Notes under the pieces: model-generated | What the model saw: the letters and a program-made list of their open reading frames with translations, nothing else | The model's database searches: none | What the model was told of the DNA's origin: nothing | Shown here: positions 38,103 to 46,947 of the stretch, one piece after another | Numbering within the stretch: the first letter of the stretch is position 1 | Layout of the letters: each line of letters starts with the position of its first letter | Program-made: the position numbers and the translations under genes | Assembly: GCF_041355105.1 (NCBI RefSeq) | Contig: NZ_JBFUPK010000003.1 | Span: 90,245-154,244, forward strand | Length of the DNA: 64,000 nucleotides | Direction: 5' to 3' | DNA from: Terriglobus sp. RCC_193 | Lineage (GTDB): Bacteria > Acidobacteriota > Terriglobia > Terriglobales > Acidobacteriaceae

Positions 38103-38200
38103 ACGGAACGTCCTCCTAAAGGTACTTCCGTAAGCAACATACGCCCCCGCAATCCCGCTGCATAGAGTCAGTTTGCAATTCTTCATCCCGCAGGAATCAA

Positions 38201-38229
38201 TTGACATAGAACCCTTCGGCGATTAGCCT
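38201..38229 (+). promoter_or_regulatory. Candidate his operon promoter
   Basis: A consensus -35 TTGACA at 38201-38206 is followed after 17 bp by TAGCCT (38224-38229), a weak -10 (3 of 6). Transcription would start near 38236, a few bases before the leader ATG at 38240, making the leader nearly leaderless; no Shine-Dalgarno is visible in front of it. Confidence 0.5.
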
Positions 38230-38239
38230 TGTAGTTGCA

Positions 38240-38323
38240 ATGCTCGTTCGCACACACCATCACGGCCACCATCACCACGCGCACATCAGCGCGACGGCGG
38301 CGGTATCCGGTGCAAAGCGGTAG
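38240..38323 (+). CDS. hisL: his operon leader peptide
   Basis: A 27-codon reading frame starting ATG at 38240 and ending TAG at 38323. It encodes MLVRT followed by HHHGHHHHAH: eight histidine codons in ten positions. Ribosome stalling on these codons when charged tRNA-His is scarce is the classical sensing step of his attenuation. A terminator hairpin begins 36 bp downstream, and hisI follows. The frame has no other likely role. The evidence is pattern-based; translation is not shown. Confidence 0.9.
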   Translation: MLVRTHHHGHHHHAHISATAAVSGAKR

Positions 38324-38358
38324 ACGAAGGCAACAAGCACAGGATTCGATTCATCACC

Positions 38359-38399
38359 AGCCCGCCCGAGCGATGCTCACTGGCGGGCTTTGTTGTGTC
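38359..38399 (+). terminator. his attenuator terminator hairpin
   Basis: The arms AGCCCGCC (38359-38366) and GGCGGGCT (38382-38389) enclose a secondary stem GAGC-GAT-GCTC and are followed by the T-rich TTGTTGTGT. It lies between the His-rich leader and hisI. An alternative antiterminator pairing with the leader region is expected but I could not fold it by hand. Confidence 0.85.
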
Positions 38400-38436
38400 C
38401 GCCTCATCGCAAACGGCACAACCACTTGAGGAAGAA

Positions 38437-38904
38437 ATGACCACTGCAGCAGCCACGCAACCCACTATCGACTTTGTAAAAGCAGGCGGCCTCGTCCCCG
38501 GCGTTGTCCAGCACGCCACCACTGGCCAGATGCTCATGCTCGGCTTCCTGAATGAAGAGAGCTACCGCCGCACACTGGAGTCCGGCTTCGTCACCTTCTT
38601 CTCCCGCACACGCAACAAGCTGTGGATGAAGGGCGAAACCAGTGGCAACCGCCTGAAGATCGTCAGCCTGCACACAGACTGTGACAGCGACACGCTCCTC
38701 TTCCGCGTGGAAGTGGAAGGCGACGGCCTGGTCTGTCACGAAGGCACCGTAAGCTGCTTCACCCGCGAAATCGAAATCACGCGCGAGAGCATTGAGATCA
38801 CCAGCGACAGCATTGAGATCACGCACGAGAGCGAGATCATCCGCGACAGCATTGAGATCACGCACGAGAGCGAGATCATCCGCGAAGTCGAAATCAGCAA
38901 GTAA
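38437..38904 (+). CDS. hisI: Phosphoribosyl-AMP cyclohydrolase
   Basis: Opens the purine ring of PR-AMP, the third step of histidine synthesis. The 155-aa protein has MLGFLNEESYRRTLESG, KGETSGNRLKIVS, and the Zn/Mg ligands in HTDCDSDTLL and CHEGTVSCF. ATG at 38437 has GAGGAAG 3-10 bp upstream. After the catalytic core, about 40 residues form a charged repetitive tail (ITRESIEITSDSIEIT...) made by a 39-bp tandem duplication. The tail is not a HisE (phosphoribosyl-ATP pyrophosphatase) domain, so HisE must come from elsewhere. Confidence 0.93.
   Translation: MTTAAATQPTIDFVKAGGLVPGVVQHATTGQMLMLGFLNEESYRRTLESGFVTFFSRTRNKLWMKGETSGNRLKIVSLHTDCDSDTLLFRVEVEGDGLVCHEGTVSCFTREIEITRESIEITSDSIEITHESEIIRDSIEITHESEIIREVEISK
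38804..38881 (+). repeat. Perfect 39-bp tandem duplication in the hisI tail
   Basis: Two identical 39-bp units (38804-38842 and 38843-38881) begin GCGACAGCATTGAGATCACG and keep the reading frame (13 codons each, DSIEITHESEIIR). A shorter degenerate copy of the ATTGAGATCAC core precedes them. Confidence 0.92.
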
Positions 38905-38929: not shown

Positions 38930-38961
38930 GGGTGCCCCACATCTCGATTCTGAGATGTGGG
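38930..38961. repeat. Palindromic repeat B, copy 1 (intergenic, hisI-hisG)
   Basis: The 32-bp unit GGGTGC followed by arms CCCACATCTC and GAGATGTGGG around GATTCT. Compensated changes relative to other copies (ACATCT/AGATGT versus ACGTCT/AGACGT) keep the stem. It is followed by GAGCGGC-AAA-GCCGCTC and other small hairpins up to hisG, so the 216-bp gap is all repeat-like. Confidence 0.9.
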
Positions 38962-39120: not shown

Positions 39121-40005
39121 ATGGAGAAGACAGTGAGCAAACTCAAACTCGGCATCCCCAAGGGCTCCCTTCAGGACGCCACCATAGACCTCTTCAAGCG
39201 CGCCGGCTGGCAGATCAATCCCTCAGGCCGCAGCTACTTCCCCTCTATCAACGACCCTGATATCGAATGCATGCTCGTCCGCGCACAGGAGATGGCACGC
39301 TACGTGGAAACCGGCTCGCTGGACGCAGGCCTCACCGGTAATGACTGGATCCTCGAGAACCTCTCCGATGTCGAACGCATCACCTCGCTCACCTACAGCA
39401 AGGCCAGCCGCCAGCGGGTGAAGTGGGTCCTCTGCGTCCCTGAAGACTCGCCCTTCCAGAAGCCCGAAGACCTTGAAGGCAAAGTCATCGCCACCGAACT
39501 CGTCGAGTACACCAAGCGCTACTTCGCTGAGAAGAACATCAACGTCAAAGTCGACTTCTCCTGGGGCGCAACCGAAGTCAAGCCCCCCATGCTCTGTGAC
39601 GCCATCGTTGAAGTCACGGAGACTGGCAGCAGCCTACGCGCCAATCGCCTCCGCGTCATCGACCTGCTGATGGAAAGCGAAACGCAGTTCATCGCCAACA
39701 AGAGCGCCTACACTGATCCGTTCAAGAAGCAGAAGATCGACAACCTTGCACTCATGCTCAACGGCGCCATCAACGCGCTCTCGCAGGTCGGCCTCATGCT
39801 CAACGTCCCCAAGGCTAACCTCGATCAGATCCTCTCGATCCTGCCCGCACTCTCTTCACCCACCGTCTCGCATTTGAAGGACGACAACTGGGTCGCGGTG
39901 AACACCATCCTCGACGAAAACACCGTCCGCGAAGTGATCCCGCAACTCAAGGCAGCAGGCGGCAGCGGCATCGTCGAATACCCACTCAGCAAGGTTGTTC
40001 TGTAA
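39121..40005 (+). CDS. hisG: ATP phosphoribosyltransferase (long form)
   Basis: Catalyses the first step of histidine synthesis, joining ATP and PRPP. The 294-aa length identifies the long HisG form with a C-terminal ACT-like regulatory domain. Motifs: [20 protein letters not shown] at the N-terminus, [11 protein letters not shown], the PRPP-site region [17 protein letters not shown], and a C-terminal region [20 protein letters not shown] involved in histidine feedback in the family. ATG at 39121 follows the repeat-rich gap. Long-form HisG does not need HisZ. Confidence 0.95.
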
Positions 40006-40024
40006 CGCGCTTTTGGCTCTTGGC

Positions 40025-40056
40025 GGGTGCCCCACGTCTCGATTTTGAGACGTGGG
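40025..40056. repeat. Palindromic repeat B, copy 2 (intergenic, hisG-hisD)
   Basis: The same 32-bp palindrome with arms CCCACGTCTC/GAGACGTGGG around GATTTT. It begins 20 bp after the hisG stop and is followed by a second hairpin module ATCGCGC-AAA-GCGCGA. Confidence 0.9.
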
Positions 40057-40134
40057 TATCGCGCAAAGCGCGACCCAGCGAAGCTCATACGCATAGAGTG
40101 CGTCATCCTAAGCAAAGCTCATACGGCCAAAGGC

Positions 40135-40199
40135 CGTCATCCTGAGCGAAACGAAGTGAAGTCGAAGGACCTGCATTCCTCTCGCACTACGGGAATGCA
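40135..40199. repeat. Dispersed repeat family A, copy 3
   Basis: It runs CGTCATCCTGAGCGAAACGA to GGACCTGCATTCC, then an inverted GGAATGCA at 40192-40199. A shorter degenerate start (CGTCATCCTAAGCAAAGC) precedes it at 40111. With palindrome B copy 2 it forms a composite that fills the whole hisG-hisD gap. Confidence 0.85.
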
Positions 40200-40212
40200 A
40201 CAAGGACGACCA

Positions 40213-41478
40213 ATGAAGCTCATCAAAACCACAGGCCGCACCAAAGCCGCCGCTTACGAACTCCTGGCCACACTCGAACGCCGCGGTGCAGTCAAAACCG
40301 CCGAGGTGGAACCCGTCGTCCGCAAGATCATGCGCGACGTGCAGAAGAGCGGCGACAAGGCGTTGCTGAAATACGCCTCCCAGTTCGACAGCCTCAACGG
40401 CCCCATCCGCGTAACGCAGGAAGAAATGCTCGCTGCGTGGAATGAAACATCTCCAGAACTAAAAGCCGCACTGCAAGCCGCAGCGGAAAACATCCGCAGC
40501 TTCGCCGAACAACAAAAGGCCGAAGAGTGGATGACGCAGAACATACCCGGCGTCACCGTCGGCCAGATCATTCGTCCACTCGAATCCGTAGGCTGCTACG
40601 TCCCCGGTGGACGTTTCCCTCTGCCGTCCACGCTACTCATGACCGCGATCCCCGCGTCCGTCGCAGGCGTGAAGCGCATCGTCGTATGCAGCCCCAAGCC
40701 CGCACGCGAAACCCTCGCCGCAGCGCACCTCGCAGGCATCACAGAGATGTATCGCACCGGCGGCGCGCAGGCCATTGCCGCACTCGCCTACGGTACGCAG
40801 ACCATCACGCACGTCGATAAGATCGTCGGCCCCGGCAACCTCTACGTCACCGCCGCCAAGATCATCGCGTCGACCGAGTGCGGTATCGACATGCCCGCAG
40901 GCCCAACTGAAATCGTCGTCACCAGCGAAAAGGGCAGCGCTGCAGGCATCGCCGCAGACCTCGTCGCACAGGCCGAGCACGATCCCGAAACCCTCGCCGT
41001 CTTCGTCACCGCAAACGAACAACTCGCACGCGGAGTAGTTAGCGAAGTTAAGCTTCAGGCCAAGGGCAACAAGCTCGCCGAAATCTCCCTGAAGGCACGC
41101 GGCACAGTGTTCCTCTGCGGCTCCATCGAAGAGACCCACATCATCACCAACCGCCTCGCGCCCGAGCACCTCACTGTCGACAGCGACAAGGATCTCAAGT
41201 GGGTCGTTAACGCGGGCAGTGTCTTCATCGGCAACTACTCGCCGCAGTCCATGGGCGACTACATCAGCGGCCCCAACCACGTTCTGCCCACAGGCCGCGT
41301 TGGCCGCATGCGTGGCGGTCTCAGCGTGAACGACTTCCTCAAAATCATCACCGTGCAGAACTACACACGCAGCGGCCTCGCCACACTCGCGCCGCAAGCC
41401 ATCGCACTCGCAGAGGCGGAAGGCCTCATCGCGCACGCCAACTCTGTGCGCATCCGCAGAAAAGGAGGCAAGCGATGA
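40213..41478 (+). CDS. hisD: Histidinol dehydrogenase
   Basis: Oxidises histidinol to histidine in two NAD+ steps. The 421-aa protein shows CYVPGGRFPLPSTLLMTAIP, GGAQAIAALAYGTQTI, the signature KIVGPGNLYVTAAK and GIDMPAGPTEIVV, with catalytic His/Glu region RLAPEHLTVD and SGPNHVLPTGRVGR. I chose ATG at 40213 with AAGGAC upstream. The open frame extending back to 40027 runs through repeats and is not conserved. It overlaps hisC by 4 bp (ATGA). Confidence 0.95.
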   Translation: MKLIKTTGRTKAAAYELLATLERRGAVKTAEVEPVVRKIMRDVQKSGDKALLKYASQFDSLNGPIRVTQEEMLAAWNETSPELKAALQAAAENIRSFAEQQKAEEWMTQNIPGVTVGQIIRPLESVGCYVPGGRFPLPSTLLMTAIPASVAGVKRIVVCSPKPARETLAAAHLAGITEMYRTGGAQAIAALAYGTQTITHVDKIVGPGNLYVTAAKIIASTECGIDMPAGPTEIVVTSEKGSAAGIAADLVAQAEHDPETLAVFVTANEQLARGVVSEVKLQAKGNKLAEISLKARGTVFLCGSIEETHIITNRLAPEHLTVDSDKDLKWVVNAGSVFIGNYSPQSMGDYISGPNHVLPTGRVGRMRGGLSVNDFLKIITVQNYTRSGLATLAPQAIALAEAEGLIAHANSVRIRRKGGKR

Positions 41479-42761
41479 GCGAAACAGCGCAAGCCACAAA
41501 TACGGGTGCCCCACGTCTCGATTCTGAGACGTGGGAGATTCAACCGCGCCGCGCCATCCTCGCCATGCCCGAGTATCACCCGCCCCTCGGCGGCCGCGAC
41601 GCACTGCGCCTCGACTTCAACGAGAACACACATGCCCCGTCACCGCGCGTGCGTGAAGCCCTCAGCACACTCTCGCTGGAAAGCTTCACCATCTATCCCG
41701 AACGCGCGCCGGTAGAAGCAAAAGTCGCCGCACACTTCGGCCTCAAGCCCGAGCAAGTGCTCCTTGCCAACGGCACCGACGAAGGCATTCACCTCGTCAC
41801 CTACACCTTCCTCGAAGAAGGTGATGAATGCCTCTTCGCCACGCCGTCGTTTTTCATGTACGACGTCAACGCCATGGCCATGGGCGCAAAACTCATCCGC
41901 ATCCAGATGGACAGCACGCTGCAATTCCCCTACCAGCGCATGCTCGACGCCATCACACCCAAGACGAAGCTCATCATCCTCTGCTCGCCGAACAACCCCA
42001 CTGGTAACACCATCACGCGCGACCAGATCCGCACCATCGCAAAAGCCGCACCACACGCGGTCATTCTCGTCGACGAAGCCTACTTCCACTTCTTCGGCGA
42101 GAGCGTGATGACAGATTTGATTGAGGGTCATTCAGAGCGCAGCCAAGAATCCCCGCTCCCTTCGACCTCTACGACAGGTTCAGAAAGTTTCGGGCGCGAA
42201 CCGGGTGCCCCACGTCTCGATTCTGAGACGTGGGTTCCACACAACATCCTCATCGCCCGCACCTTCTCCAAGGCCTACGGCCTCGCCAACCTGCGCGTCG
42301 GCGCCATTGCCGGACCAGTTAGCTTAATTAACCATCTCCGCAAAGCCAGCTCGCCTTACAACGTCAACGGCATCGCACTCATCGCCGTCAACGCCAGCGT
42401 GGACGACACCGAATACATCGACTGGTACGTTGCACAGATCACCGAAGGTCGCGAACGCATCTACAGGGCGCTCGACAACATGAAGGTGCCCTACTGGCAG
42501 TCGCACGCCAACTTCGTACTCATGCACATCGGCCCGCGCCACAAGGAGTTTGTCGACGGGATGCGCGCCCGCGGCGTGCTCGTCCGCGACCGCAGCAGCG
42601 ACCCCGGCCTCGATGGCTGCGTCCGCATCACCATCGGCCTTGAAGATCAGATCAGCATCGGCATCGCCGCGCTTCGTGACACACTTGCAGGCATGGGATG
42701 GACGCCCGCCGAAGTGAACAAGCCGGAAACAGCACCCAAGGAGACACCCGACTATGAGTAA
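41475..42761 (+). CDS. hisC: Histidinol-phosphate aminotransferase carrying two in-frame repeat inserts
   Basis: A PLP aminotransferase of class I/II acting at histidinol phosphate. Core motifs: [38 protein letters not shown] and the PLP lysine in [16 protein letters not shown] (Lys266). At 428 aa it is longer than the usual 350-370. The excess lies in an N-terminal insert (residues 11-20, [10 protein letters not shown]) and a 37-residue insert (217-253) that ends with the same peptide. Both are encoded by palindromic repeat B. The large insert falls between DEAYFHF and RTFSKAY, normally about 25 residues apart. The frame is uninterrupted. It overlaps hisB by 8 bp. Confidence 0.93.
41504..41535 (+). 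repeat. Palindromic repeat B, copy 3, inside hisC (N-terminus)
   Basis: An exact 32-bp copy read as [10 protein letters not shown] (hisC residues 11-20). It precedes the conserved start of the aminotransferase fold, so it behaves as an N-terminal extension. Confidence 0.92.
42123..42234 (+). repeat. Composite repeat insert inside hisC, including palindrome B copy 4
   Basis: The insert is about 112 bp. The left part, GGTCATTCAGAGCGCAGCCA then AGAATCC, resembles the intergenic module GTCATTCTGAGCACAGCGAA at 52660. A linker CCTTCGACCTCTACGACAGG follows, then the exact 32-bp palindrome at 42203-42234. Read in frame it gives hisC residues 217-253, ending [10 protein letters not shown]. The order of modules matches the intergenic composite at 52658-52764. 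Confidence 0.88.
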
Positions 42762-43461
42762 CCCAGAGAACGGCAGCGACCTCCACACCGCACCGGCATA
42801 CACCGAAGCCTTCCCTAACGCTCCTGGCACCCCTAAGACGGGTGCCCCACATCTCACTTCTGAGATGTGGGTTCAGCGCATCGCAGAGATCGACCGCAAC
42901 ACCACCGAGACCAAGATCAAGCTGCGCCTCAACCTCGACGGCCAGGGCACCTACAACGTCCGCACCGGCATCCGCTTCTTCGACCACATGCTGGAGCTCT
43001 TCACGCGTCACGGTGGCTTCGATCTCGACCTCGTCTGCAACGGAGACCTCGACGTCGACCAGCACCACACCGTGGAAGACGTAGGCATCGCACTCGGTGA
43101 AGCCTTCGACAAGGCGCTCGGCGACAAGAAGGGCATCCTTCGCGCAGGCTACTTCGTCATGGCCATGGACGAGACACTCGCCATCGCCGCCATCGACATC
43201 AGCGGCCGCGTTGGCTACGCCGTGGACGACCAGGTGAACGTGCCCATCGTCGGCGATCTGCAAACCGAACTCGTCACCGACTTCTTCGACGGCTTCGCCC
43301 GCGGCGGCCGCTGCAACGTCCATGTAAAAACCATGTACGGCCGCAGCAACCATCACAAGATCGAAGCCATCTTCAAAGCGTTCGCCCGAGCCCTGCGCGG
43401 AGCCGTAAGCCGCGACGAACGCATGAAAGACCTGCTGCCGAGTACAAAGGGACTGCTATAA
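42754..43461 (+). CDS. hisB: Imidazoleglycerol-phosphate dehydratase, with repeat-encoded N-terminal extension
   Basis: Dehydrates IGP to imidazole acetol phosphate. The 235-aa protein has the monofunctional HisB core from about residue 41: [58 protein letters not shown], and [20 protein letters not shown] with the metal-binding His clusters. The usual length is about 195-200 aa. The 40 extra residues at the N-terminus include a palindrome B copy read as [10 protein letters not shown] (residues 30-39). An alternative downstream start could remove it, but no good one with a ribosome-binding site is evident. It has no HisB-N phosphatase domain. Confidence 0.93.
42840..42871 (+). repeat. Palindromic repeat B, copy 5, inside hisB (N-terminus)
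   Basis: A 32-bp variant with arms CCCACATCTC/GAGATGTGGG around ACTTCT. It is read in the same frame as the two hisC copies. Confidence 0.9.
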
Positions 43462-43484
43462 CACCCTCGTGTAAGCGAAGCGAT

Positions 43485-43672
43485 AAGCGCCAAAGGCGCG
43501 CCGACATATTAGCCTAGGCCGAAGGCCTAGGTAGACGAACCAAACCAGAACCAAGCGCTGAAGGCGCGCTCTATAGATCGGGCCTTCAGCCCTCACCGGA
43601 CTTACCAAATGCAAACCTAAGCCTACGGCCTAGGCTAAAATTGCCCGCGCCGTTGGCGCTTCACATCGAGTC
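43485..43672. repeat. Repeat cluster between hisB and hisH (family C copy 2 and relatives)
   Basis: It holds the family C module (43485-43532; AAGCGCCAAAGGCGCGCCG to CCTAGGCCGAAGGCCTAGG). After it come GGGCCTTCAGCCC, the palindrome AGCCTACGGCCTAGGCT (about 43620-43636) and GCGCCGTTGGCGC. Just before hisH there are short TGCTGACT/GCTGACTGGCTGA direct repeats. The 256-bp gap has no gene. Confidence 0.8.
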
Positions 43673-43717
43673 CGCTGACTTGCTGACTCGCTAACCTGCT
43701 GACTGGCTGAATTTCTT

Positions 43718-44326
43718 ATGATCCAGGTAATCGACTACAAAGCCGGCAATCTCACCAGCGTAGTTAAGGCGCTTAACTATCTCGGTGCAGAGACCAACAT
43801 CACGCAATCACCCGACGACGTCCGCAAGGCCGACAAGATCGTCCTTCCCGGCGTGGGCCACTTCCGCGCCACACAGCTTCTGCACGACCTCCAGCTCACC
43901 GAGGCCACACGTGAAGCCATCGCACGCGGCGTACCCTTCCTTGGCATCTGCGTGGGCCTGCAGTGGCTCTATCAGGGCTCTACCGAAGCCGAAAGCACCG
44001 ACGGCCTCTGCGCCTTCGGCGGCAAGTGCGAGCGCTTTCCCGCCACCTTCGACGGAGCCGAACTCAAGAGCCCACACGTCGGCTGGAACTCCCTCGAAGA
44101 CATCCGCCCGGACAGCAAACTGCTGCGCGGCATCTCCAACGGCGAGTTCGTCTACTACACCCACTCCTGGCGAGCGCCCATCAGTCGCGACACCGCCGCC
44201 TCCACCAGCTACGGCGGCCCCTTCACCGCAGCCGTGGAACGCGACAACGTCATGGGCGTCCAGTTCCACCCAGAAAAATCCAGCAACACCGGCCTCAAAT
44301 TACTTCGCAATTTCGTGGAGTTGTAA
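43718..44326 (+). CDS. hisH: Imidazole glycerol phosphate synthase, glutaminase subunit
   Basis: Releases ammonia from glutamine for HisF. The 202-aa class I glutamine amidotransferase begins [20 protein letters not shown] and has the nucleophile Cys78 in [15 protein letters not shown], and the His184-x-Glu186 pair in [12 protein letters not shown]. Length is normal. It starts at ATG 43718 after the repeat cluster and is followed by hisF 55 bp downstream, separated by a hairpin that also lies close to the hisF Shine-Dalgarno. Confidence 0.95.
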
Positions 44327-44332
44327 CAGGAA

Positions 44333-44366
44333 CGAACGCAGCGATCGCAACGGCCCGCCGCGTTCG
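44333..44366. repeat. AACGAACGCAGCG-family hairpin, copy 2, between hisH and hisF
   Basis: The arms CGAACGC (44333-44339) and GCGTTCG (44360-44366) enclose a GC-rich centre. Unlike its relatives it lacks a T-run and stands 6 bp before the hisF TAGGAG, so it may stabilise the transcript or affect translation rather than end transcription. Confidence 0.75.
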
Positions 44367-44381
44367 CTCTTAGGAGTTTCA

Positions 44382-45167
44382 ATGCTGACCAAACGCATCA
44401 TCGCCTGCCTCGACGTCCGCGCTGGACGCGTCGTCAAAGGCATCCAGTTCCTTGACATCATCGACGCCGGCGATCCCGCCGAGCTCGCACACCGCCACGC
44501 CGCAGCAGGTGCAGACGAGATCGTGCTGCTCGACATCACAGCCACGCACGAAGGCCGCGGCACGTTGATCGACACGGTGAAGCGCACCGCCGCAGAACTC
44601 TTCATCCCTTTCACCGTTGGTGGCGGCATTCGCTCTGCAGAAGACGCAGAAGCCGTCTTCCTCGCAGGCGCAGACAAAGTCAGCATCAATTCCTCTGCCA
44701 TCGCACGGCCCGAACTCATCGGCGAAATCGGCTCCAGCTTCGGCGCGCAGGCCGTCATCGTAGCCATTGATGCCAAGCGCAACAACGAATCCAGCGACCC
44801 CATCGGCGACGCGGAAGTCTACGTCAGCGGCGGTCGCAAAAACACCGGCCTCAAAGTGGTCGAGTGGGCCATTGAAGCCGAGCAGCGCGGCGCAGGCGAA
44901 ATCCTGCTCACCAGCATGGACTCCGACGGCACACGCGCAGGCTTTGATGACGAACTCACCGCACGCGTTTCACAAGCAGTGCAGATTCCCGTCATCGCCA
45001 GCGGCGGCGCAGGCACGGCCCAACACTTCGTCGATGTCTTCGGGCATGGATCAGGGGGAGGCAAAGCCGACGCCGCACTCGCAGCCAGCATCTTCCACTT
45101 CGGCATCACCGATAGCTGGGCACTGAAGCGTGAACTGCAACAACACGGCGTCCCCGTACGCCTATAA
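44382..45167 (+). CDS. hisF: Imidazole glycerol phosphate synthase, cyclase subunit
   Basis: Uses HisH-derived ammonia to form IGP and AICAR. The 261-aa TIM barrel has catalytic Asp11 in [18 protein letters not shown] and the second Asp in [17 protein letters not shown], plus [17 protein letters not shown] and [14 protein letters not shown] (phosphate sites). ATG at 44382 follows TAGGAG. It is the last gene of the contiguous his block; a terminator-type hairpin begins at its stop codon. Confidence 0.95.
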
Positions 45168-45220
45168 AGAACGAACGCAGCGAAAGCCACGGACCCGCTG
45201 CGGACGCTGCGATCGTTCTT
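45167..45220. terminator. AACGAACGCAGCG-family hairpin, copy 3, after hisF
   Basis: Outer arms AAGAACGA (45167-45174) and TCGTTCTT (45213-45220), inner arms CGCAGCG (45176-45182) and CGCTGCG (45205-45211). It is followed by GCATTTTC. It separates hisF from the convergent GH43 gene. Confidence 0.82.
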
Positions 45221-45237
45221 GCATTTTCAAGTAGCCA

Positions 45238-46188
45238 TCAGCGAGAACTGATCGCCCCATCCTTCTGTGGCACACCAAACTCCGGCACGCCGCCCTTCCA
45301 CGTAAACCGCTGCGCCCGCACCGCGCGGTTCCGCGGCGTTGGATCATCGGTAGCCTTCGCCGCATACAACAACCACCATCCATCCGCATCCTGTGCAAAC
45401 GTGCCACGCCCCGGCCCATAGATGCCATTCGCAGGACTCGCCTCAAATACCGGCTGCGGCATCTTCACCCAGTTCTTTCGCTGCAACGGATCGCCACCAC
45501 GAAACGTCAGCAACCCCAGGCAATATCGGGGCGAAGCCGTATCGCTCCCCGAATACACAATGAATGTCTTACCCGCGTGATACAGCGCCGTAGGCCCTTC
45601 ATTCACGGGATAATTCTTCGTCGTACCCGCACCGCGCTCCCACGCAAACTCCGGTTCCGCAATCAAAGCCTTCTCGCCCACAGGCTGCAATGGCGACGAC
45701 ATCTTTGTCATCCAGATCGCGTTCTCCCCACGATCCACGGTTACATACATCAGGTACGGCACACCCCTCACCATCAGCAACGACGGATCAATCGAAGGCC
45801 GCCCCAAATCCAGCGCTCCATGAAACGTGTAGCTGCCAAACACATCGTCTGCGTCGGATGACAACACATAAATCGCATGACCGCCTTTGTTCATCCGAGC
45901 CGTGAAGTAGATCCACCAGCGTTCCTGCATCCGCCACAGCGTCGGCGACCACACCTGGTCCATCCCTTCCGGCGCCGTGAACACCACCTTCGCATCCTGC
46001 GCTGCCGACACGACACTGGGACCACTCCAAAGCGTAATGTTGTTGCCCGTCGTCGCCAGCAACACATACTTACCCTGCACCGGATGCAGCGTAATGAACG
46101 GGTCCGCGTGATCCAGCAGCGGATTCGTTTGCGCCACCGCCCCACCGACAAAAAGCACACACAGCAGCAAAACGCGAAGAAGACTCAT
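45238..46188 (-). CDS. Glycoside hydrolase family 43-like protein, secreted
   Basis: A 316-aa five-bladed beta-propeller enzyme probably active on arabinan or xylan side chains. The signal peptide is SLLRVLLLCVLFVGGAVAQ. Catalytic features fit GH43: Asp in LLDHADPFITLHP, Asp in LGRPSIDPSLLM, and Glu in YPVNEGPTALYH. WSPTLWRMQERWWIYFTA matches the W-A-P-x-v-x-Y region. ATG at 46188 was chosen because it begins the signal peptide. It is inserted antisense between hisF and hisA, breaking the his operon. Confidence 0.88.
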   Translation of the reverse strand: MSLLRVLLLCVLFVGGAVAQTNPLLDHADPFITLHPVQGKYVLLATTGNNITLWSGPSVVSAAQDAKVVFTAPEGMDQVWSPTLWRMQERWWIYFTARMNKGGHAIYVLSSDADDVFGSYTFHGALDLGRPSIDPSLLMVRGVPYLMYVTVDRGENAIWMTKMSSPLQPVGEKALIAEPEFAWERGAGTTKNYPVNEGPTALYHAGKTFIVYSGSDTASPRYCLGLLTFRGGDPLQRKNWVKMPQPVFEASPANGIYGPGRGTFAQDADGWWLLYAAKATDDPTPRNRAVRAQRFTWKGGVPEFGVPQKDGAISSR

Positions 46189-46245
46189 CCGCCAATTCCA
46201 AGCCAACAGGCACGCGCGGTCAAGCGCCAATACACTAGAAGAGTC

Positions 46246-46947
46246 ATGCTCATTCCATCCATCGACCTCATGAACGGACAGATCGTCCAGCTTGTCCAGG
46301 GTGAAAAACTCAAGCTCGCCTTCGACGACTTCGATTACTGGATCAACCGCTTCTCCAAGTACCCGCTCGTGCAACTCATCGACCTTGACGCGGCCATGCG
46401 CCAGGGCGACAACCGCGCGCTCATCCAGCAGTTCACGTCGAAACTCACCTGCCAGGTGGGCGGCGGCCTTCGCACCGCGGAAGACGGCCAGCGCATGCTT
46501 GATCTTGGAGCCAGGCGCGTCATCTACGGCTCCACGCTCTTCGGCGGCGACAACGAAGCCGACCGCAAGCGCCACCCCGTCCTCAACCTCAACTTCGCAG
46601 AGTCGCTCAACAAGGCACTCGGAGAAGACCAGCTCGTCTTTTCCGTCGACACGAAGCACGGCAAGGTTGCGGTCAAAGGCTGGAAAGAAAACGTCGACCT
46701 CACACCGGAGGAAGCCGTCACGTGGCTTGAGAACGACTGCGCTGCCTTCCTCTACACCCACGTCGACACCGAAGGCACCATGAGCGGTTTCCCCATGGAC
46801 ATCGCGGGTATCCTGCGCGCCTGCACGGCGAAGCAGTTGATCGTCGCCGGTGGCATCAAGGAAAAGAAGGAAGTGGACGACCTGGACGCCATGGGCGTGG
46901 ACGCCGTAGCAGGCATGGCCGTCTACAGCGGAGCGATGGAAGCCTAG
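46246..46947 (+). CDS. hisA: Phosphoribosylformimino-5-aminoimidazole carboxamide ribotide isomerase
   Basis: Isomerises ProFAR to PRFAR, the step before HisFH. The 233-aa TIM barrel starts MLIPSIDLMNGQIVQLVQGE (catalytic Asp near residue 7) and has CQVGGGLRTAEDGQRML, a second-half Asp in THVDTEGTMSGF and the phosphate site LIVAGGIKEKKEVDDL. The insertion-tolerant middle (FGGDNEADRKRHPVLNLNF) is somewhat unusual. ATG at 46246 has AGAAGAG upstream. It lies 58 bp from the divergent GH43 start, so it needs its own promoter outside the attenuated operon. Confidence 0.93.
   Translation: MLIPSIDLMNGQIVQLVQGEKLKLAFDDFDYWINRFSKYPLVQLIDLDAAMRQGDNRALIQQFTSKLTCQVGGGLRTAEDGQRMLDLGARRVIYGSTLFGGDNEADRKRHPVLNLNFAESLNKALGEDQLVFSVDTKHGKVAVKGWKENVDLTPEEAVTWLENDCAAFLYTHVDTEGTMSGFPMDIAGILRACTAKQLIVAGGIKEKKEVDDLDAMGVDAVAGMAVYSGAMEA

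Follow-up and report, generated by a model that had tools for sequence, protein, structure and literature searches.

A probable ribosome-mediated attenuator with a leaderless or near-leaderless histidine leader peptide before the his operon of Terriglobus and its relatives

Described attenuators and the histidine leader of Terriglobus

The attenuator of the enterobacterial his operon is a multi-hairpin RNA, which we take to be represented in Rfam by family RF00514 (His_leader), and in which a His-codon leader peptide (hisL), a terminator and an antiterminator precede the his genes. In the leaders of E. coli and S. typhimurium, seven His codons follow one another in a row, according to the available part of PMC3896937. 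Attenuators combining a His leader peptide, a terminator and an antiterminator before his genes have also been described in Firmicutes, with three to five His codons in a row (PMC9413887, in the text available), and the words "leaderless" and "acidobacteri" are absent from the main text of that paper. In the alphaproteobacterium Sinorhizobium meliloti, the trpL leader transcript was reported, from experiment, to start with the ATG of the leader ORF (PMC7298713, available part), and a 2005 survey of Actinobacteria reports, in its accessible text, no conserved RNA structure upstream of the histidine operons of that phylum (PMC1262725). For Acidobacteria, a 2010 study gives almost no predicted attenuator with an assigned function, and, to the knowledge of its authors, leader-peptide systems had been shown only in Proteobacteria and Actinobacteria (PMC2965389, in the part available). 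We found no his attenuator described in Acidobacteria in the accessible literature, which consists mostly of open papers, and the 2010 Lopatovskaya survey may cover one.

The DNA analysed here, referred to as the window, is a 64-kb stretch from Terriglobus sp. RCC_193, whose genome comprises 4.2 Mb in nine contigs. Comparison with relatives indicates that the region upstream of hisI in all likelihood acts as a ribosome-mediated transcription attenuator of the his operon, with a start that is probably leaderless or nearly so. Its leader peptide ORF (38240..38323, + strand; 27 codons from ATG, followed by TAG) encodes the 27-residue peptide MLVRTHHHGHHHHAHISATAAVSGAKR, in which codons 6-8, 10-13 and 15 specify His, the amino acid made by the operon itself; a preliminary description, made from the DNA letters, had already reported a 27-codon frame with eight His codons, and this reading stands. 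The run HHHGHHHHAH (38255..38284, + strand), recognized from codon reading and from the His-rich leaders of relatives, is the predicted stalling site. Across the six frames of the window no other stretch holds at least eight His in 11 codons, each of 20 Markov-simulated windows contained none, and comparable His-rich ORFs occur in 4 of 1018 control windows (660 nt, reverse strand of hisI loci); a chance origin of the His-rich leader is ruled out. In addition, a scan of both strands of the window for a promoter, a short ORF and a terminator, using simple purpose-made rules, returned the leader locus as its sole match.

The preliminary description called the attenuator enterobacterial in style, which holds for the principle and not for the anatomy. 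The locus shares with enterobacterial hisL a His-codon leader peptide, a terminator and a competing antiterminator, which are conserved together, and a his operon downstream. In contrast to hisL, the His codons are arranged 3+4+1, with Gly and Ala between them, and do not form an uninterrupted run of seven, no SD precedes the leader, which is probably leaderless, the 5' strand of the antiterminator lies inside the leader ORF, and the first gene is hisI. No Rfam cut-off is reached either: with a library that presumably includes the His_leader and T-box models, a scan of the window at the gathering score returned a distant tRNA alone, and at E <= 10 the interval 38150-38500 gave four weak, unrelated minus-strand matches, with no His_leader and no T-box in either scan. 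A T-box riboswitch was rejected as a candidate on this absence of a match to its model in both scans. The Firmicutes his attenuators differ from the window in the consecutive His codons given above and in belonging to another phylum, and S. meliloti trpL resembles it in a transcript that starts with the leader ATG, experimental there and predicted here, but concerns tryptophan and an alphaproteobacterium, whereas the leader in the window is one for histidine. As far as we have seen, the reach of such an element across one family and parts of its phylum is new, as are, to judge from the sequences, the apparent near-leaderless start and the placement of a predicted antiterminator strand inside the ORF.

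The histidine operon and the distribution of the leader

The attenuator stands at the head of an operon that begins with hisI (38437..38904, + strand, with its ATG at 38437 and an SD-like GAGGAAG at 38428-38434), whose product matches phosphoribosyl-AMP cyclohydrolase (PRA-CH). The rest of the operon, identified by gene matches, comprises hisG, hisD, hisC, hisB, hisH, hisF and hisA (39121..46947, + strand), and we infer that the genes from hisI to hisA form one transcript. The order leader, hisI, hisG is found in all 45 leader-bearing loci of at least 9 kb, hisD follows in 44 of them (not in L039), and hisC was not found in four (L014, L031, L043 and L044). The preliminary description placed the leader before hisI "rather than hisG"; the leader does precede hisI, but nothing has been displaced, and the phrase reflects gene order, because hisI heads the operon in every one of these 45 loci. 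Among loci of at least 9 kb, L054 and L068 have hisI followed by hisG with no leader found, and no such leader was found before hisI in L071, L072, L076 and L079, where hisI is the last his gene found.

Two further features of the operon were observed. The hisI product carries, beyond its PRA-CH domain, a tail of imperfect repeats, EIEITRESIEITSDSIEITHESEIIRDSIEITHESEIIREVEISK (about 38775-38901). A 28-bp palindromic element occurs in four copies (at most 3 mismatches; 38934-38961, 40029-40056, 41508-41535 and 42207-42234), every one of them inside the his operon, and the rest of the 64 kb has none. Two of the copies read in frame in the ORF assigned to hisC, encoding 10 residues, and the first of these, near the N-terminus of HisC, may precede the true start. 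The element recalls the in-gene palindromic elements known from Rickettsia.

With a criterion of at least four His in 11 codons, a His-rich leader was found upstream of hisI in 64 of 80 named loci, those ranking highest among 322, the 16 misses including L024 and L056, which have less than 100 nt of upstream sequence. Within the family, the leader precedes hisI in 29 of 29 loci and in 34 of 34 further regions picked across genera, that is, in 63 of 63 regions or 61 of 61 distinct genomes, two genomes being present in both sets and several also among the named loci. Conservation of the His codons and of the hairpin in relatives, on which the preliminary description had made its reading depend, was accordingly found, and its assignment of the DNA to a putative acidobacterium is supported by the named relatives. 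In the other families of the phylum, the leader is present in 19 of 46 regions (seven families) and in none of 30 further loci outside the family, so that its occurrence outside the family is patchy. The survey of 190 regions used below omits 15 same-family loci with a minus-strand match, which are counted in the 29, and 15 of L112-L141, which are counted in a separate comparison.

A covariance model of the element, built from 44 sequences, some of which are among its own matches, gave a match in 319 of 398 family genomes at E <= 0.001, and with it Acidobacteria would gain a leader-peptide attenuator that reaches across one family. At E <= 0.01, 135 of 200 genomes of the class matched, family included, and the genome of the window has a single match. 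hisI was found in 326 of the 398 family genomes; the model is without a match in 79, and of the 20 of these that were listed 17 are also listed without hisI, while G043, G044 and G051 have hisI and no model match. The absence of a hisI match in 72 of the 398 genomes, and in 42 of 256 when completeness of 90% or more and contamination of 5% or less are required, makes histidine auxotrophy or a replaced enzyme possible in these members of the family.

Ranked by hisI, an uncultured Terriglobus MAG (82%) comes first among the named relatives. Its leader peptide recurs in L087, a genome of the genus of the window, which by this comparison makes Terriglobus the probable genus and Acidobacteriaceae the probable family. 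The leader peptide of the window is shared without change by its two closest relatives, L083 and L084: the ORF differs from L083 at five positions, all synonymous, and from L084 at three synonymous positions and in the change of TAG to TAA. Downstream of the His run, nothing in the ORF differs but one synonymous base (L083) and the stop codon (L084), the antiterminator strands are without differences in both, and the terminator differs in one base, at 38381 in its internal loop, again in both.

Similar leaders also occur further afield. A 2015 conference paper cited in PMC4833913 deals, to go by its title, with actinobacterial His leader peptides, and L035, L037, L052, L063 and L065, which are labelled Acidimicrobium or Actinobacteria, have a His leader with a terminator before hisI. 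The gene order I-G-D-C-B-H-F is found in all four of L035, L037, L052 and L065, L063 being too short. Transfer of the operon together with its attenuator from one phylum to another is possible, as is an ancient origin of the arrangement.

Terminator and competing pairing

Between the leader and hisI lies an intrinsic terminator, identified by folding and conservation, with the hairpin AGCCCGCC ... GGCGGGCT (38359..38389, + strand; arms 38359-38366 and 38382-38389) and the U-rich tract TTGTTGTG (38390..38397, + strand). The GC hairpin and U-rich tract ahead of hisI agree with the preliminary description, apart from the spacing of 36 bp given there, which has to be corrected: the hairpin begins 35 nt past the leader stop codon. 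Under a loose rule, applied without a control, a hairpin with a T-rich tail was assigned downstream of the leader in 132 of 132 cases, some of which (L051, L150, L151) look wrong or weak. In the terminator columns, 93.5% of the alignment cells are paired, and the terminator shows no strong covariation because it is too invariant. The plain folding energy of the window leader is ordinary and uninformative (z = -0.95), and the support is therefore comparative, not thermodynamic. Attenuators that act on translation, by sequestering a ribosome binding site, exist in other bacteria (PMC9413887, in the text available), and regulation here could likewise fall on the translation of hisI instead of on transcription termination; yet the hairpin is followed by a T-rich tail in all 132 assignments of the loose rule, and in the window 38 nt lie between its end and the SD-like motif of hisI, which makes this alternative highly improbable.

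A second pairing, excluding the terminator, was found across the relatives. Its 5' strand (38289..38300, + strand; columns 56-67 of alignment A1) lies in the leader ORF directly after the His run, and its 3' strand (38362..38373, + strand; columns 141-153 of A1) is formed by the 5' arm of the terminator and part of its loop. It was assessed in 97 sequences, which remain from the 132 leaders of the 190 regions (first reduced to 131) after removal of near-duplicates. When the terminator arm and 8 nt of loop are set against the coding part of the leader only, the leader segment pairs better with its own partner than with swapped ones in 75 of 97 sequences (mean z -0.78, p = 4e-9), both inside the family (44 sequences, p = 7e-7) and outside it (53 sequences, p = 2e-4), and a reversed-segment control gave no effect (p = 0.69). 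The native pairing also beats codon-order shuffles in 90 of 97 (p = 8e-17). Because these segments were chosen after viewing the alignments, the first version of the swap test, with the 5' arm and a longer upstream segment, should also be weighed; its effect is weaker and of the same sign, the native partner winning in 62 of 97 (p = 8e-4), with controls at p = 0.42 and p = 0.48.

In alignment A1, 442 of 519 antiterminator cells pair (85.2%), against at most 55.5% in slid versions, a measure that favours the 12-pair helix used, which was drawn from one relative, L212. Double-changed cells number 24, against 12.1 in shuffles (reached in 0 of 500), and the covariation score is 0.227, against at most 0.117 when slid. 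Pairs changed on both sides number 4, no more than in shuffles (mean 4.0), and sliding by +1 gives 6 of these pairs and 19 double-changed cells. Kinship is only partly controlled in these pairing and covariation tests, and the covariation energy from RNAalifold, run separately on two groups of the family, was small (-0.1 for either group). The terminator/antiterminator pairing that the preliminary description had proposed to look for is, with the swap test and the double-changed cells, found across the relatives. In the window, 8 of the 12 pairs form and 4 are broken, as read off the alignment, and its native pairing is no better than that with swapped partners, at rank 0.43 overall and 0.56 inside the family, or 0.75 when the first version of the test is used, so that for the window taken singly the antiterminator is predicted by homology.

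The balance between the two structures was followed by folding with a ribosome in place, where "antiterminator" covers every case in which the arm pairs with RNA upstream of it. If the RNA is cut off at the terminator loop while the ribosome occupies the His codons, such upstream pairing forms in all 97 sequences; placing the ribosome at the stop codon gives preference to the terminator in 95 of them. Once the terminator is complete and the ribosome is stalled in the middle of the His run, 70 of the 97, among them the window, still adopt the terminator as their minimum-energy fold, and antitermination would therefore have to be kinetic. The strand 38289-38300 ends about 20 nt before the stop codon, and a ribosome at the stop may therefore leave it uncovered.

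The same pairing bears on whether the ORF might instead make a small, His-rich metal-binding protein, next to which the terminator would be incidental. With eight of eleven codons specifying His, the peptide could be a ligand for Ni or Zn, and it is identical in the two closest relatives of the window. However, outside the His run the peptides differ greatly from one another, the codons that follow the run are matched to the terminator arm at the level of RNA, and the ORF heads the his operon and was not found before hisI in the four loci named above in which hisI comes last; we give a metal-binding function scarcely any credence, and retain the reading as a leader peptide.

Promoter position and proposed mechanism

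Upstream of the leader, a promoter is predicted from box matches and from its spacing in relatives (38201..38229, + strand), with TTGACA (38201-38206), a 17-nt spacer and TAGCCT (38224-38229). A gap of 10 nt separates the -10 box from the leader ATG, and with the usual promoter geometry the predicted 5' UTR of the leader is only about 2-6 nt, which would place the transcription start at or within a few bases of the ATG. Of 120 non-redundant regions, 99 have the end of the best sigma-70-like promoter of a 310-nt span at a distance of 5-12 nt upstream of the leader ATG; here 12 of the 132 leaders were removed as near-duplicates or as too close to the region start, and the start codon, set independently of the promoter, was whichever ATG lay closest to the His run, with GTG or TTG used in its absence. 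We prefer this tally to an earlier wide scan (64 of 73 at 6-11 nt, 66 of 73 including 12 nt), because the start codons of the latter were chosen partly by promoter score, and a first tally, which covered just 4-12 nt upstream, was set aside. The control on hisI starts gave 0 of 76, and is weak because the leader promoter falls inside the same span. There is no excess of Shine-Dalgarno motifs before the leader ATG compared with random positions: an SD-like motif precedes 5 of 120 leaders, against 6.8% of random positions and 30 of 76 hisI starts, the last count being more generous, as it tries several in-frame ATGs, which flatters hisI.

Taken together, the promoter spacing and the lack of an SD excess suggest that the leader is probably leaderless or nearly so. 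In the available text of PMC3160421, TANNNT boxes just before start codons are taken as a sign of leaderless genes, and 9.7-19.4% of the genes of three Acidobacteria are assigned to the leaderless class. The same attenuator could also have its leader translated from an ordinary 5' UTR, through a promoter further upstream, with the close promoter being secondary or spurious, and in 21 of the 120 regions the best match is indeed placed elsewhere. We consider this unlikely in view of the 99 regions in which the best match of the whole span is the close one, of SD-like motifs no commoner than at random positions, and of the two closest relatives, where the promoter boxes are kept (with one -10 base different in L084) while the spacer diverges. 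If leaderless initiation is correct, these loci would provide a large natural series on how a ribosome starting at the first bases of the RNA keeps up with RNA polymerase.

From the observed parts and their conservation, the competing pairings, the co-variation across relatives and the promoter spacing, the following course of events can be proposed. RNA polymerase would start at about 38236, giving a transcript whose 5' end lies within a few bases of the leader ATG, and a ribosome would load on this leaderless, or nearly leaderless, end and translate the His codons behind the polymerase. With charged His-tRNA plentiful, the ribosome would pass codons 15-27 and cover or disrupt the antiterminator strand at 38289-38300; with this strand blocked, the terminator at 38359-38389 would form and transcription would stop before hisI. 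When His-tRNA is scarce, the ribosome would stall on codons 6-15 and leave 38289-38300 free to capture the emerging 5' arm and loop of the terminator (38362-38373), so that the polymerase would read on into hisI-G-D-C-B-H-F-A. In this direction of response, which we infer from the arrangement of the parts, the his genes would very probably be read only when histidine runs short.

Aromatic leaders in related genomes

We suggest tentatively, and with more doubt than confidence, that Acidobacteriota may possess a general class of leaderless leader-peptide attenuators sensing amino-acid supply at the RNA 5' end, of which the His element would be one widespread member and a second may sense Phe, Trp and Tyr (RFWYY, RFWYF) before DAHP synthase. 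If such a class exists, leaderless initiation would be functional, contributing to the timing of attenuation, and not accidental. In ten relatives, a scan for leaderless leaders with terminators at trpE, ilvB and leuA found none at those genes, and the same scan yielded one aromatic leader beside a leuA locus, at DAHP synthase. A brief search of the accessible literature found no combined Phe-Trp-Tyr attenuator.

Among 46 loci scanned, short Phe-Trp-Tyr ORFs were observed in five genomes from a different family within the same order, in L277 (G666:C6), L255 (G664:C36), L284 (G663:C16), L285 (G665:C21) and L286 (G671:C114), with the peptides RFWYYRSGGRGVS in three of the loci and RFWYFGTSGRGVS and RFTYYWYYRTNGRDLP in the others. 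On their sequences, these ORFs resemble parts of an attenuator through which the common aromatic pathway would respond to Phe, Trp and Tyr together. Each of them is followed by a strong terminator and then, downstream and in the same direction, by a DAHP synthase match, and in L277 a promoter ends 9 nt before the ATG of the aromatic ORF.
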